This document shows, in pieces, positions 27,073 through 35,394 of a DNA stretch of 64,000 nucleotides. Both the position numbers and the translations under genes were made by a program. The stretch covers positions 255,973 through 319,972 of the forward strand of contig JAGXRP010000033.1 in assembly GCA_018335795.1 (NCBI GenBank). Direction: 5' to 3'. Numbering within the stretch: the first letter of the stretch is position 1; every line of letters starts with the position of its first letter. Below the pieces are notes generated by a model. That model had not been told where the DNA came from and did not search any database. It saw only the letters and a program-made list of their open reading frames with translations. This DNA comes from Desulfobulbaceae bacterium. GTDB taxonomy: Bacteria; Bacteroidota; Ignavibacteria; Kapaibacteriales; UBA2268.

Positions 27073-27098
27073 AAAAAAAAAACGGCGAAATCGCCGTT
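27073..27098 (-). terminator. Strong intrinsic terminator between rpsO and pnp
   Basis: AACGGCGA (27081-27088) and TCGCCGTT (27091-27098) form an 8-base perfect stem. On the minus strand it is followed by a run of eight or more T residues (27080-27073). It begins seven bases after the rpsO stop. Confidence 0.9.
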
Positions 27099-27104
27099 CT
27101 TTAG

Positions 27105-29500: not shown

Positions 29501-32500
29501 TTACTTCAACTTACGCTTAATTTCTACCAATTTGAATGACTCAATGATATCAGATTCCTGCAAATCATTGTATCCGTCAATTTGAATACCGCATTCGTAT
29601 GCTGTATCAACTTCTTTCACATCGTCTTTGCCACGTTTGAGTGATGATATTCCACCCTCAAATTGGACAAATCCATCTCTACGGACTCTGATTTTATCGT
29701 TACGTGTGATTTTGCCACTCAAAACGTAACAACCTGCAATTACACCAAGGCGTGAAATCTTAAATGTTTTTCTGACTTCGACAGTTGAAGTAATTTCTTC
29801 TTTGTATTCCGGAGCAAGCAAGCCTTCTAAAGCCAATTGAATTTCATTTATACAGTCGTAGATGATATTGTACAATCTTATATCAACTTGTTCTGATTCG
29901 GCTGCTTTACGTGCTTTGGCAGAAGGATTGACGCTAAATCCTATTACAACGGCTCCTGATGCAGCAGCCAACATAACGTCAGTCTCGGAAATAGTACCAA
30001 CACCTTTGTGAAGAATTTGGACTTTCACCTCTTCGGTTGAAAGCTTTTGCAATGAATCGCTCAAAGCTTCTACAGAACCTGTCACATCACCTTTGATGAC
30101 TAAGTTCAATTCTTTCACTCCACCCATCTGTATTTGTGCAGATATTTGGTCGAGAGTAACAAGTTTCGTTTGTCGAAGTTCCTGTTCACGTCTTAATTTT
30201 TTGCGTTCGTTTGCAATTTCGCGAGCTTCAATTTCTGAACCTGTTGACATAAATGAATCACCTGATTCAGGTAAACCATCAAAACCAACAACCAAAATTG
30301 GGTCAGCCGGACCGACAGAATCCACTCTTTTTTCGCGTTCATCAAGCAATGCTCTAACTTTACCGGAATGGAAACCTGCTACGAATGGGTCGCCAACTTT
30401 CAAAGTTCCTCTTTGAATTATAACTGTTGCGACTGCTCCGAATCCTTGCTTCATGTTAGATTCGATAACAACGCCTTTACAAAGTCTGTCAGGATTAGCT
30501 TTTAATTCCAAAATTTCTGCTTCGAGCAAAATCTTTTCAAGTAATGTATCTATATTTTTCCCGAATTTGGCAGAAATCTCAACAGCTTGATGATTACCGC
30601 CCCATTCTTCAACAAGTACACCGTAATCTGCGAGTTGTTGTTTGATTCTATCAGGATTCGAGTCTATTTTGTCAACTTTATTAATAGCAACAACGATTGG
30701 TACTTTTGCTGCTTTAGCATGACTAATCGCTTCAATTGATTGAGGCATCACACTATCATCAGCAGCAACGACTAATACAACGATATCAGTAACTTGAGCA
30801 CCACGAGCACGCATAGCTGTAAATGCTTCGTGACCGGGTGTATCTAAGAATGTGATTGATTTACCGTTAGGTAATTCAACGCTGTATGCACCTATATGTT
30901 GGGTGATACCGCCGGCTTCGCCGGCTACCACATTGGCACTGCGAATATGGTCAAGCAAGGATGTCTTACCATGGTCAACGTGTCCCATAATAGTAACTAT
31001 AGGAGCACGAGGCTTCAATGTTTCAATCGGATCTATGTCTTCCTCTACGCTAAGAACTTGCTTTTGGTCTAAGAATTCGACATCATAGCCATAATCAAGA
31101 GCAATCATCGAAATAGTCTCTTTGTCTAATCTTTGGTTTATGGTAACCATAAGGTTTAGTTCCATACACTTCATGATTACTTCTGAAGGTGAAATGCCCA
31201 TCAAAGAAGCCAAGTCACTTGTAGTAACGTATTCGGATAATTTCAGGATTTGGTCTTCAATCGCTTTATCTTCCTTGATTTTCATTTCCTTTTCTTCACG
31301 TTCAGCCTTCCGTTTCAATCTCATACGATTACGTTGAGACATCGAACCGGTGGAGTCCATTCCTGATAAGGTTTCGCGAATCGCTCTGTCCACATCCTCT
31401 TGACTTATCGTCTCGCGAATTGATTTTTTACGTTTACGTTTCTTTTTGTCATCCTTTTCGGGAGCTTTTTCTTCAATTTTCGGCTTGTCTTTGAATTTGG
31501 TTTTCAAATCCAAAACTTGCTTAGTAGAAGGTTGCTGAATTGGTGTATCGCCAACGTTGTGTTTACGTTTTTTGAATTGCTTTGGTTTTGCAGCAGATTT
31601 ATCATCATCAGCTGTTGCCGGTGCTTCTTTTTCTTTTCCGGTCGGCGGAGGTGGACTTGTTCTGGTATCCGTTCTTTTGGGTCTTCTTTTTTCAGCTTTA
31701 GCTGCTTTTTCGTCTGATTCTTGTTTTGCCTTTTTATCTGCCTTGAGTTTCTTTTCAGCTTTCTCTGCAGCTCTTTCTTTACGTGATTTTGGAGCTTTGA
31801 TATCTATTTTACCAAGAACAGTCAGGCCACGTAATTGACGTCCACTTGCAATGTTATCTTTTTCTTCGAGTTGTTGACGTTCCAACTCACTTAATTCGGT
31901 TGTGTCGTCAATTTCATCTACATCATCAATATCGTCTTCAACTTCATCGTCATAGTCGTCTTCAATTGTTGCTTCAATTTCAGATTCGACCATTTCTATA
32001 GCTTCAGTAATTGGCTCAACTTTCGGTTGTTCGATTTCTTCGGCTTTTGGCTCTTCTTTTTTAACTTTATGATGCTTGTGCTCAATTTTTGATTCTTTTA
32101 CAGGCACATCATCAACTATAGATTCTGCTTCTTTAAGAATTTCGGGTTCGACATGTTTGATTTCTTCAACTGGAGGAACAACTTCAATTTCTTCGGCAGA
32201 TGTAATTTCTTCAGGAGCATCATTTTCTTCAACCAATTCAATTGGCTCTGCTTTTTCAACTTCTGCTATGGGAGCTTCGTCATCTTCGGCAACGCTTTCT
32301 GTTTTGGTTGAAACTTTCTCAATCGGTTCACTTGGAACAGCTTCAACAATTGATTCGATTATAGGTTCGGGTTCAACTGTTTCTTTAACCGCATCTTCAA
32401 GATGATGGTGAAGGGCATGTTCTTTGAGCTTGTCTTCACGGTATTTGTCATCAACGGTTCTTTTGCTTTCGACCCTGATATCCTTATGCTTTTGGATTTT

Positions 32501-32698
32501 TTCTCGTACGGTTTCGGCAGCTTTCTTTTCGCGTCTGAATTTTTCGTAAACCAAATCAACCATTGCGGGTGTAAGCGATGTAATGGGTTTGTTGACAATG
32601 TCAAAACCTTTACTGTTTAGAAAATCAACAATAGTATCTCTGCCAATGTTAATTTCAGATGCTAATTTGAATAGCTTAATATTTTTATCTGTAGCCAT
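29501..32698 (-). CDS. infB: Translation initiation factor IF-2
   Basis: 1065 residues, at the long end for the family. An N-terminal IF2N-like helical module ([19 protein letters not shown]) precedes a low-complexity Glu/Lys/Pro-rich linker (about 60-460, acidic stretch [18 protein letters not shown]), then a second IF2N region near 490-540. The GTPase domain has G1 [15 protein letters not shown] (about residue 567), G3 DTPGHEAFT and G4 NKVDK. It is followed by EF-Tu-like domain II, domain III and the fMet-tRNA-binding domain ending in [14 protein letters not shown]-2 delivers initiator tRNA to the 30S subunit. It lies 12 bases after nusA and 12 before rbfA. The linker encodes near-repetitive Glu/Val/Pro segments. 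Confidence 0.97.
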
Positions 32699-32710: not shown

Positions 32711-34051
32711 TTAATCCAATATAATGTCATTGTTCGGCTTGAAATTCTTAATTGCTTCAAGAACGTCCGGTTGCTCATGTTCGTCAAATTCGACAAGCAT
32801 GATTTGGCGAAGCTCTACGAGTTTTTCTTTGGTCATTCCGGGTATTGTTAACAAGAAATCCGTATTTGCTTCTATGAATTCGCGAGCCGTTTCTATGCCG
32901 GTATCGAAGACCAGATCATATAATTCTTTGCCCATATCAGGTAAGAATTCAGTTAATTCTATATCTTCATCACCAAGCTTAGTAAGTAAGATATTATAGC
33001 CTGTTAATTTTGAAGCCAATCTTACATTCTGACCGTTTTTACCTACTGCAAGAGCAACTTGGTCATCCTTTACGGTGACATTCGCTGTTCTCGTTTCGAT
33101 AGAGAGTTCTATTTCATCTACTTTTGCAGGTGACAATGCACGAGCGATGAATAAATTTATATCATCAGTATATTCAATCAAATCAATGTTTTCGTTATTC
33201 AATTCGCGTACAATCGAATGAATTCTAATCCCTTTCATACCGACACAAGCCCCAACGGGGTCAACTCTGTCGTCGAAAGATACAACAGCAACTTTTGAAC
33301 GTTCGCCAGGATCACGAGCTATTGATTTAATTTGGATTATACCATCGTAAATTTCAGGAATTTCAATTTCGAATAATCTCGCCAAAAAGTCTTCCGATGC
33401 GCGGGACAAAACCACTTCCGGTTGACCGCCGGCACCTGAGCGTTTGACTTCTTTGATGAGTGCTTTGATTGTTTGATTTTTCTTGTAGCGATAAGGCTCA
33501 TTTGGGATTTGTTCTTCGCGTGGAAGTCTCATCTCAATTTTGTTGTGTACAACCAAAATGTCATGGCGACGTACCTGATAAATTTCGCCGATTATGATTT
33601 CGCCGACTTTGTCGATATATTCGCGATAAACGTTGTCTTTTTCAACTTCTCTAATTCTTTGGTTCAAATTTTGCGAAGCTAAAGTAACAAGACGTCTGCC
33701 GAAACTCTCGGAGATATTATCAAGGGTAATTTCTTCGATGAATTCATCTCCAATTTCATATTCTTCGTCAGAATACTTCCGAGCGTCCGAAATCGCAATC
33801 TGTAGTACTTCATCCTCGACTACTTCGACAATTTCTCTCATGAGATAAATTTCGATATCGCCTTTTTCCATATTGACGATAATCTCGAATTTCGATTCTT
33901 GACCGTATTTTTTACGGATTATCATCGAAAGAGTTTCTTCGAGAATACCTTGAAGCAAATCGCGGTCAATGCTTTTATGCTTAGCCATTTCTGCAAATGC
34001 TTCGATGATGACTTTTTTGTCAATCTTATGTTTGGGTTTACGTCGAGCCAT
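32711..34051 (-). CDS. nusA: Transcription termination/antitermination protein NusA
   Basis: 446 residues: N-terminal RNA polymerase-binding domain (about 1-130), S1 domain (IIIGEIYQVRRHDILVVHNKIEMRLP), then KH1 with GACVGMKGIRIHSIVREL and KH2 with ALAVGKNGQNVRLASKLTGY. A short C-terminal helical region contains the helix-hairpin-helix-like FLLTIPGMTKEKLVELRQIM. NusA modulates pausing, termination and rRNA antitermination. It is first in the operon; rimP, which often precedes nusA, is not present. The leader region carries two candidate -7 elements and a terminator-like hairpin (listed separately). Confidence 0.97.
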   Translation of the reverse strand: MARRKPKHKIDKKVIIEAFAEMAKHKSIDRDLLQGILEETLSMIIRKKYGQESKFEIIVNMEKGDIEIYLMREIVEVVEDEVLQIAISDARKYSDEEYEIGDEFIEEITLDNISESFGRRLVTLASQNLNQRIREVEKDNVYREYIDKVGEIIIGEIYQVRRHDILVVHNKIEMRLPREEQIPNEPYRYKKNQTIKALIKEVKRSGAGGQPEVVLSRASEDFLARLFEIEIPEIYDGIIQIKSIARDPGERSKVAVVSFDDRVDPVGACVGMKGIRIHSIVRELNNENIDLIEYTDDINLFIARALSPAKVDEIELSIETRTANVTVKDDQVALAVGKNGQNVRLASKLTGYNILLTKLGDEDIELTEFLPDMGKELYDLVFDTGIETAREFIEANTDFLLTIPGMTKEKLVELRQIMLVEFDEHEQPDVLEAIKNFKPNNDIILD

Positions 34052-34072: not shown

Positions 34073-34080
34073 CAAATTTA
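34073..34080 (-). promoter_or_regulatory. Candidate proximal promoter element of nusA
   Basis: TAAATTTG on the minus strand matches TAnnTTTG and would start transcription near 34066, about 15 bases before the nusA ATG. No TTG is found at the expected upstream distance, which instead falls in the hairpin. Confidence 0.35.
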
Positions 34081-34085
34081 AAAAA

Positions 34086-34113
34086 TATTAAAAAATGGGC
34101 TTCACGAGCCCAT
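34086..34113 (-). promoter_or_regulatory. Terminator-like hairpin in the nusA leader (possible attenuator)
   Basis: ATGGGCT (34095-34101) and AGCCCAT (34107-34113) form a perfect 7-base stem with a 5-base loop. Reading toward nusA it is followed by a T-run, AATA and another T-run (34094-34081). No gene lies upstream on that strand because the neighbour is divergent, so a simple gene-end terminator is not expected here. Confidence 0.55.
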
Positions 34114-34128
34114 CCCTTTAGAGATTTA

Positions 34129-34136
34129 CAAAAGTA
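34129..34136 (-). promoter_or_regulatory. Candidate distal promoter element of nusA
   Basis: TACTTTTG on the minus strand matches TAnnTTTG. Transcription would begin near 34122, just before the hairpin at 34113-34095. No convincing TTG at -33. Confidence 0.35.
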
Positions 34137-34242: not shown

Positions 34243-35394
34243 ATGAGTGATTTCTTTTATACAGATGATTTATTAACGGAAGACGAAATAATGTTTCGGA
34301 ATATAGTCCGTGATTTTGTTGATGATGAAGTAATTCCCATTATCGAATCTCATTTCCAAAATGCCACCTACCCTACTCATCTCACCAAACAATTGGCTGA
34401 TTTGGGCGTGTTTGGCATTAAAGTCCCCGAGCAGTATGGAGGCTCCGGTGCCGGATATGTGATGTATGGTCTCGCTATGCAAGAGCTCGAACGAGGCGAT
34501 TCGGCTATAAGGTCTTTTGCATCAGTTCAAAGTTCTCTGGTGATGTATCCCATTTGGCGGTACGGTAGCGATACCCAGAAAGAAAAATATCTCAAAAAGT
34601 TGGCAGAGGCTGAGTTTATAGGATGCTTCGGACTAACTGAACCTGATTTCGGGTCAAATCCCGCAGGAATGATTACTACGGCAACAAAATCAAGCAACGG
34701 GTTTTTACTTAATGGTGCAAAAATGTGGATTACAAATGGTACTGTGGCAGATGTTGCCGTGGTATGGGCAAAATTAGATGGCGAGATTCACGGATTCATC
34801 GTTGAAAAAGGCATCCCAGGATTTTCGGCTCCCGAAATGAAGGGCAAACATTCTCTCAGAGCCTCTGTTACATCGGAATTAATATTTCAAGATTGTGAAA
34901 TCCCGGAAGAAAATATATTGAATGTATCAGGTTTAAAAGGACCACTTTCTTGCTTGACTCAAGCTCGATACGGAATTGCATGGGGTGCTGTAGGTGCTGC
35001 ATTGGCTGTTTATCAATCATCTGTTGATTACGCAAAAACTCGCATTCAATTTGATAAGCCCATTGGAGCTTTTCAATTAGTCCAAGAAAAACTTGTTTAC
35101 ATGTTCACAGAAATTTCAAAGGCACAACTTGTGAATATTAGATTGGGGCGATTGATGGAGGAAGGTAAAGCTAGCCCCCAACATGTTTCATTTGCTAAAC
35201 GGAATAATGTAGAAATGGCTCTTAACTGTGCTCGATTAGCTCGTGAAATTCACGGAGCGAACGGCATACTTGGCGAATACCCGATTATGCGCCATGCTGC
35301 AAACTTGGAATCGGTGAAGACATATGAAGGCACTCACGATATTCATACATTAATTCTTGGTCATTATATCACAGGCTTACCTGCTTATCAATAA
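34243..35394 (+). CDS. Acyl-CoA dehydrogenase, glutaryl-CoA dehydrogenase-like
   Basis: 383 residues. FAD-dependent acyl-CoA dehydrogenase fold. Features specific to the glutaryl-CoA branch: SFASVQSSLVMYPIWRYG, CFGLTEPDFGSNPAGM, MWITNGTVADVAVVWAK and the C-terminal catalytic Glu in TYEGTHDIHTLILG (about residue 361). ARYGIAWGAVGAA is also typical. Such enzymes oxidise and decarboxylate glutaryl-CoA to crotonyl-CoA in lysine/tryptophan degradation; non-decarboxylating relatives exist, so the precise reaction is inferred. The gene starts 191 bases from nusA (divergent) and precedes P5C dehydrogenase, another amino-acid catabolic gene, which appears to have its own promoter. Confidence 0.87.
   Translation: MSDFFYTDDLLTEDEIMFRNIVRDFVDDEVIPIIESHFQNATYPTHLTKQLADLGVFGIKVPEQYGGSGAGYVMYGLAMQELERGDSAIRSFASVQSSLVMYPIWRYGSDTQKEKYLKKLAEAEFIGCFGLTEPDFGSNPAGMITTATKSSNGFLLNGAKMWITNGTVADVAVVWAKLDGEIHGFIVEKGIPGFSAPEMKGKHSLRASVTSELIFQDCEIPEENILNVSGLKGPLSCLTQARYGIAWGAVGAALAVYQSSVDYAKTRIQFDKPIGAFQLVQEKLVYMFTEISKAQLVNIRLGRLMEEGKASPQHVSFAKRNNVEMALNCARLAREIHGANGILGEYPIMRHAANLESVKTYEGTHDIHTLILGHYITGLPAYQ

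Follow-up and report, generated by a model that had tools for sequence, protein, structure and literature searches.

NusA stimulates hairpin-type termination and its levels set pausing and termination genome-wide, hence the interest in how cells hold NusA constant. The closest described counterpart of the element reported here is the rimP-leader (Naville & Gautheret, 2010; PMC2965389), a conserved terminator that lies 4–130 nt before the gene in rimP-nusA-infB operons; its stem is GGGc(...)gCCC, a U-stretch is present and no antiterminator can be seen. The sections of the source on this leader name NusA as the best candidate regulator and RimP as another possibility. This proposal of 2010 did not decide between RimP and NusA as reader of the leader, and the string 'Bacteroid' is absent from its main text. 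The same sections give B. subtilis a 180-nt leader, with rimP at the front of the operon (PMC2965389), and a 2025 review (PMC12288461, citing Mondal et al., 2016) describes autoregulation of NusA in this species, with NusA stimulating termination in the leader of its own operon. For the rimP-nusA operon of S. agalactiae (gbs0413–gbs0418), the passage that treats it puts termination 31 nt downstream of the start site and suggests NusA feedback (PMC4448216). The relevant passages of a further study place a TAnnTTTG box at −12 to −5 in Flavobacterium psychrophilum and report that a structured 5′ element, with no Rfam match, precedes rimP in Flavobacteriaceae (PMC9723704). In two B. thetaiotaomicron transcriptome papers rimP and nusA go unmentioned in the main text, and a search of titles and abstract starts in the open-licence literature, which is weak evidence of novelty, found none on a Kapabacteria nusA leader or on persistence of the leader after rimP loss.

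The locus studied here lies in a window of 64,000 nucleotides (the whole stretch of DNA that was analysed) from a genome of the family designated f1, and its features are as follows:

34129–34136, − strand: distal −7 promoter element TACTTTTG (consensus TAnnTTTG), conserved in the family
34095–34113, − strand: terminator-type stem-loop ATGGGCT-CGTGA-AGCCCAT with core GGGC/GCCC, from sequence, fold and conservation
34113–34107, 34106–34102 and 34101–34095, − strand: its 5′ arm ATGGGCT, loop CGTGA and 3′ arm AGCCCAT, respectively
34090–34095, − strand: first T-run, T6 (U-tract), after the stem, from sequence
34080–34085, − strand: second T-run, T6, from sequence only
34073–34080, − strand: proximal TAAATTTG, candidate second promoter, not conserved
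32711–34051, − strand: nusA (NusA_N and KH domains), first gene of the operon, with its ATG at 34051
29501–32698, − strand: infB (translation initiation factor IF-2), from the ORF list and domain search
34243–35394, + strand: divergent acyl-CoA dehydrogenase gene, from the ORF list and domain search

Re-reading of the sequence bore out the preliminary description of this site, from the GC-rich 7-base stem and the T-runs to the flanking TAnnTTTG elements on both sides and the coordinates of each. On the − strand, the distal TACTTTTG is followed after 15 nt by the start of the hairpin and then by the T-run, all ahead of nusA and within the 191-nt intergenic region (20% G+C) that separates nusA from the acyl-CoA dehydrogenase gene. 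The 7-bp stem lengthens to 12 pairs if A-T and G-U are counted, and its predicted stability is moderate (−13 to −14 kcal/mol). No T-run follows the hairpin on the + strand, so that it is oriented toward nusA, and the ORF list and domain search revealed no convincing − strand gene upstream of it, both in agreement with the preliminary description; the sole − strand ORF listed nearby (34273–34482, 69 codons, TTG start) is antisense inside the acyl-CoA dehydrogenase gene. Like the rimP-leader, then, the element is a hairpin with a GGGC/GCCC core and a U-stretch in the leader of an operon with nusA and infB on the same strand, and its distance to the first gene (38 nt) is similar. The Rfam rimP model (RF01770) gave many weak matches and none over the gathering cut-off in any of 60 related genomes, a result that is uninformative since the model exceeded its cut-off in just one of 14 control genomes; a scan against Rfam of 501 bases around the site (E up to 10) returned ten weak matches, all below gathering scores and none to rimP.

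From this anatomy and its conservation, we regard it as probable, though well short of certain, that the element is a leader attenuator of the nusA-infB operon that adjusts itself via NusA. Transcription would start from the distal TAnnTTTG promoter at a predicted +1 near 34124, a position obtained by applying the F. psychrophilum box at −12 to −5 to the window. The GGGC/GCCC hairpin with its U-tract would form ~12 nt into the RNA, and a share of the polymerases would stop after ~35 nt, giving a predicted 35-nt attenuated RNA (UCUCUAAAGGG-AUGGGCU-CGUGA-AGCCCAU-UUUUU) with its 3′ end in the first T-run, while read-through polymerases would transcribe nusA, infB and the genes behind. If the start is where predicted, the 7-bp stem is preceded by only ~11 nt of RNA, some of which prolong it: the bases just before the stem pair with the U-tract and lengthen the hairpin. 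With so little RNA before the hairpin there would be little room for a classical upstream antiterminator, and whether polymerases stop or read through would most likely depend on the elongation complex itself. As NusA stimulates termination at hairpins, abundant NusA would lead to more termination and less nusA mRNA, and so lower its own synthesis.

Parallels exist for what we infer here of the start site, the termination and NusA as sensor. The B. subtilis nusA-operon leader also contains an intrinsic terminator, and the NusA feedback that we propose is reported there, although that operon begins with rimP and its leader is 180 nt long. In S. agalactiae the attenuated RNA is likewise very short (31 nt there versus ~35 nt predicted here) but, in the passage concerned, it was mapped by RNA-seq, in an operon that includes rimP and in a different phylum.

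When the 3 kb around the site were scanned loosely for terminators, three sites turned up versus 2.3 expected from shuffles, so that a loose match alone proves nothing. Other analyses within the same genome nevertheless confirm that the hairpin is real and beyond chance. The 87-nt leader folds with z = −3.17, with one of 200 shuffles equally good, and among the 45 hairpins that passed a strict filter over 400 kb of the genome, that of nusA is the only one that follows a TAnnTTTG element and leads into an ORF without another ORF ending just before it; one other has TAnnTTTG close upstream but follows a stop codon, with no ORF within the next 200 nt. A combined pattern of TAnnTTTG, GGGC/GCCC hairpin and T-run has a single match in the whole genome, at the nusA leader. 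Within the window TAnnTTTG averages ~0.9 occurrences per kb on each strand, and such frequency makes either −7 match alone weak evidence; the distal element is backed by conservation, as the family comparison below indicates, but the proximal one is not. We also considered, and rejected, that GGGC hairpins might be the ordinary terminator of this genome, as GGGC...GCCC followed by T5 occurs at just 13 distinct places in 3.5 Mb. Among the 12 of these that were inspected (the thirteenth, on contig C81, was outside that inspection), only the one at nusA has TAnnTTTG within 60 nt upstream.

We then compared 60 genomes, 36 of family f1 (this one included) and 24 from other families of the order. 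The strict pattern of promoter, hairpin and T-run matched 42 distinct sites, 37 of which head a nusA or rimP-nusA operon, one per genome in 37 genomes (26 of the 36 in f1 and 11 of the 24 in the rest of the order), and a reversed control pattern had one match across all 60. The five strict sites away from nusA and rimP are G006:C28:7605, G017:C40:295, G018:C109:12937, G030:C1:27626 and G046:C88:5630 (genome, contig and position). Four f1 genomes without a NusA match were left out of the analyses of individual leaders, and in 29 of the remaining 32 a looser rule identified a GGGC hairpin with a T-run before nusA, so that the hairpin noted in the preliminary description does recur in related genomes. 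TAnnTTTG is also present in 28 of the 32, 7–29 nt ahead of the GGGC core, which is a point of difference from the rimP-leader as published; in one f1 genome (G010) the hairpin is present and TAnnTTTG absent. The three genomes missed by the looser rule comprise one in which the contig ends with merely 58 nt of upstream sequence (G035), one in which the stem is present with a long loop and no adjacent T-run (G021), and one with a hairpin and T-run but a different stem (G029).

Of 23 order-level genomes, 20 have the hairpin ahead of the RimP domain, and just 13 of these 20 copies also have a strict TAnnTTTG no more than 45 nt away. The three without a GGGC hairpin (G039, G048, G055) all belong to family f5; other families of the order have it. 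Over the f1 and order-level copies together the GGGC/GCCC core occurs in 48 of 49, a constancy that is partly by construction, as the looser rule requires GGG opposite CC(C/T) plus a T-run; the fourth core pair, free under the rule, is C-G in 49 of 49. Immediately outside the core, the next position is paired in 34 copies (29 T-A, three A-T, one C-G and one G-T) and unpaired in 15 of the 49, and covariation therefore appears to lend the stem slight support, the argument resting instead on position, T-run and promoter. Distances from hairpin to gene range from 26 to 175 nt among the scored f1 leaders, the two longest (175 nt in G008 and 151 nt in G017) exceeding the published 4–130 nt. In this scoring no start was found in G010, G016 and G032 and no hairpin in G005, G019, G021 and G035; the looser rule recovered the GGGC hairpin in G005, G010, G016, G019 and G032.

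Loop and spacer sequences vary among the copies, and no conserved partner sequence is apparent in them: what recurs is the promoter element, the stem and the T-run. A partner-less leader is what might be seen if the hairpin were a constitutive partial terminator that sets a fixed, lower expression of the operon without regulation. We hold this to be improbable, arguing (rather than from measurement) that a weaker promoter would be a cheaper way to the same end and that a hairpin kept across the families of the order suggests regulatory use.

Conservation also bears on the role of the proximal element. The preliminary description had proposed that a distal transcript is attenuated by NusA-stimulated termination while a proximal promoter bypasses the hairpin. 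TAnnTTTG lies between hairpin and ATG in just three of 24 scored f1 leaders (G000, G002 and G017; the 24 exclude G028, where another hairpin was picked), and it is missing in one of three same-genus genomes. The bypass accordingly loses its footing, and the attenuation part of the proposal is retained, with a conserved hairpin, a match to a published attenuator class and the NusA autoregulation of B. subtilis in its favour.

The same data weigh on the idea, also raised in the preliminary description, that the hairpin acts only as an insulator. In 16 of the 24 f1 loci (of 32) that this count took in, the other eight not being resolved, a divergent acyl-CoA dehydrogenase gene lies upstream, and a divergent neighbour was found in 8 of 23 order-level loci. 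A hairpin downstream of a conserved promoter element and with a divergent upstream neighbour is unlikely to serve for insulation, and this reading is disfavoured. A broader version of it, in which the hairpin insulates or ends a separate small RNA and nusA is driven from the proximal promoter, could draw on the second TAnnTTTG downstream of the hairpin in the window and on a conceivable RNA function of the 35-nt product. It strikes us as barely credible, given a proximal TAnnTTTG that is not conserved, the divergent neighbour in those 16 loci, and loop and spacer sequences that vary from copy to copy.

The order-level relatives differ from family f1 in the gene that follows the element. The Pfam RimP_N model has no match in any of the 36 f1 genomes, this one included, but matches 23 of the 24 order-level genomes, in which rimP is on the same strand just before nusA, and 116 of 118 genomes in a sample of the phylum, whose two blanks are its two f1 members. 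RimP_C (PF17384) gave only sub-threshold matches in f1, in six genomes, although this model adds little on RimP loss because it performs poorly in RimP-bearing genomes too, exceeding its cut-off in 12 of the 60 genomes. RimP in f1 could have diverged beyond the Pfam models; judged by these searches, however, there is an apparent loss of rimP in the family. The element stands directly before nusA in f1 and before rimP in the order-level relatives and, on the genomes compared, it heads the operon regardless of the presence of rimP. This sets f1 apart from the rimP-leader as described, where rimP is the first gene. It also makes the family a natural experiment in which the leader is kept with no RimP seen, pointing to NusA or the elongation complex. 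With the element before nusA and no detectable RimP, it is unlikely that RimP acts as the sensor in f1, and the pattern there favours NusA over RimP as the putative regulator; NusA or the elongation complex would be the simplest candidate readers of the leader. Anatomy, conservation, rarity elsewhere in the genome and the place before nusA with no detected RimP are direct observations. What is new is a leader element kept directly before nusA in a family without detected RimP; the attenuator type itself is known.

To place the order in a wider frame, we inspected 90 rimP leaders (L213–L242 and L263–L322) from the 116 RimP-bearing genomes of the phylum sample, a phylum that we take to be Bacteroidota from the GTDB placement of Kapabacteria. 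With a strict filter and no mismatch, a terminator-type hairpin occurred within 150 nt before rimP in 62 of the 90, versus two on the opposite strand and a shuffle mean of 1.0. With one mismatch allowed and 220 nt upstream of the RimP domain, the count was 81 of 90, versus two on the opposite strand and 1.9 in shuffles, all such hairpins being counted without case-by-case exclusion of the ends of upstream genes. Among the 62 strictly scored hairpins, only 17 are preceded by a strict TAnnTTTG at 45 nt or less, so that closeness of the promoter is not established at phylum level. Stems vary by lineage (TCGCCC...GGGCGA in f12, GTGGGG...CCCCAC in f21, GTGAGCG...CACTCGC in f27, and GGGGAC...GTCCCC in f25 and f30) and, unlike the published rimP-leader, the sampled genomes outside the order mostly have other stem sequences. 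A GGGC-specific reading for the whole phylum was rejected, the core plus T-run being found at just one of 30 rimP loci outside the order. Comparison of these leaders suggests that position and terminator form, rather than one sequence, are kept in the phylum. The structured element of Flavobacteriaceae, as described, resembles ours in its operon position and TAnnTTTG promoters, and the source passages on it contain no mechanism and no link to the rimP-leader or NusA.

These stem sequences leave some room for an attenuator of the same anatomy that answers to another sensor, be it NusG, a ribosomal or other RNA-binding protein on the GGGC core, or effects of the start site and nucleotide pool. 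The constant core in the order (48 of 49) may mean that sequence is recognized and not the stem alone, and the different stems in other families of the phylum could be taken the same way. We nonetheless consider another sensor unlikely, since NusA feedback on the nusA operon is reported, in the source passages available, for both B. subtilis and E. coli, and since, as argued above, the f1 leaders make RimP itself an unlikely one.

Carrying the NusA reading further, we see an even chance that the rimP-leader is misnamed, and that it would belong to nusA and sense the activity of NusA: it is kept in f1 after the apparent loss of rimP, directly before nusA, its predicted ~35-nt RNA would be too short for an upstream antiterminator, and across the phylum a leader terminator persists while its stem seems to have been replaced several times. 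Self-adjustment by NusA predicts that in tractable Bacteroidota the rimP/nusA operon gives rise, at its head, to an RNA of ~30–45 nt.

As regards the genes of the operon, the window NusA (32711–34051) is 97% identical to NusA of Ignavibacteriae bacterium HGW-Ignavibacteriae-1, which marks the genome as one of Kapabacteria/Ignavibacteria type. Pfam calls in it NusA_N, KH_5 and, below its cut-off, KH_NusA_C, with no S1 domain called at E 0.001. The ORFs behind infB look like rbfA, truB and ribF from a reading of their translations, and ~330 nt past the end of the ribF-like ORF a strong − strand hairpin with T-runs (27077–27102) possibly marks the end of the nusA operon.
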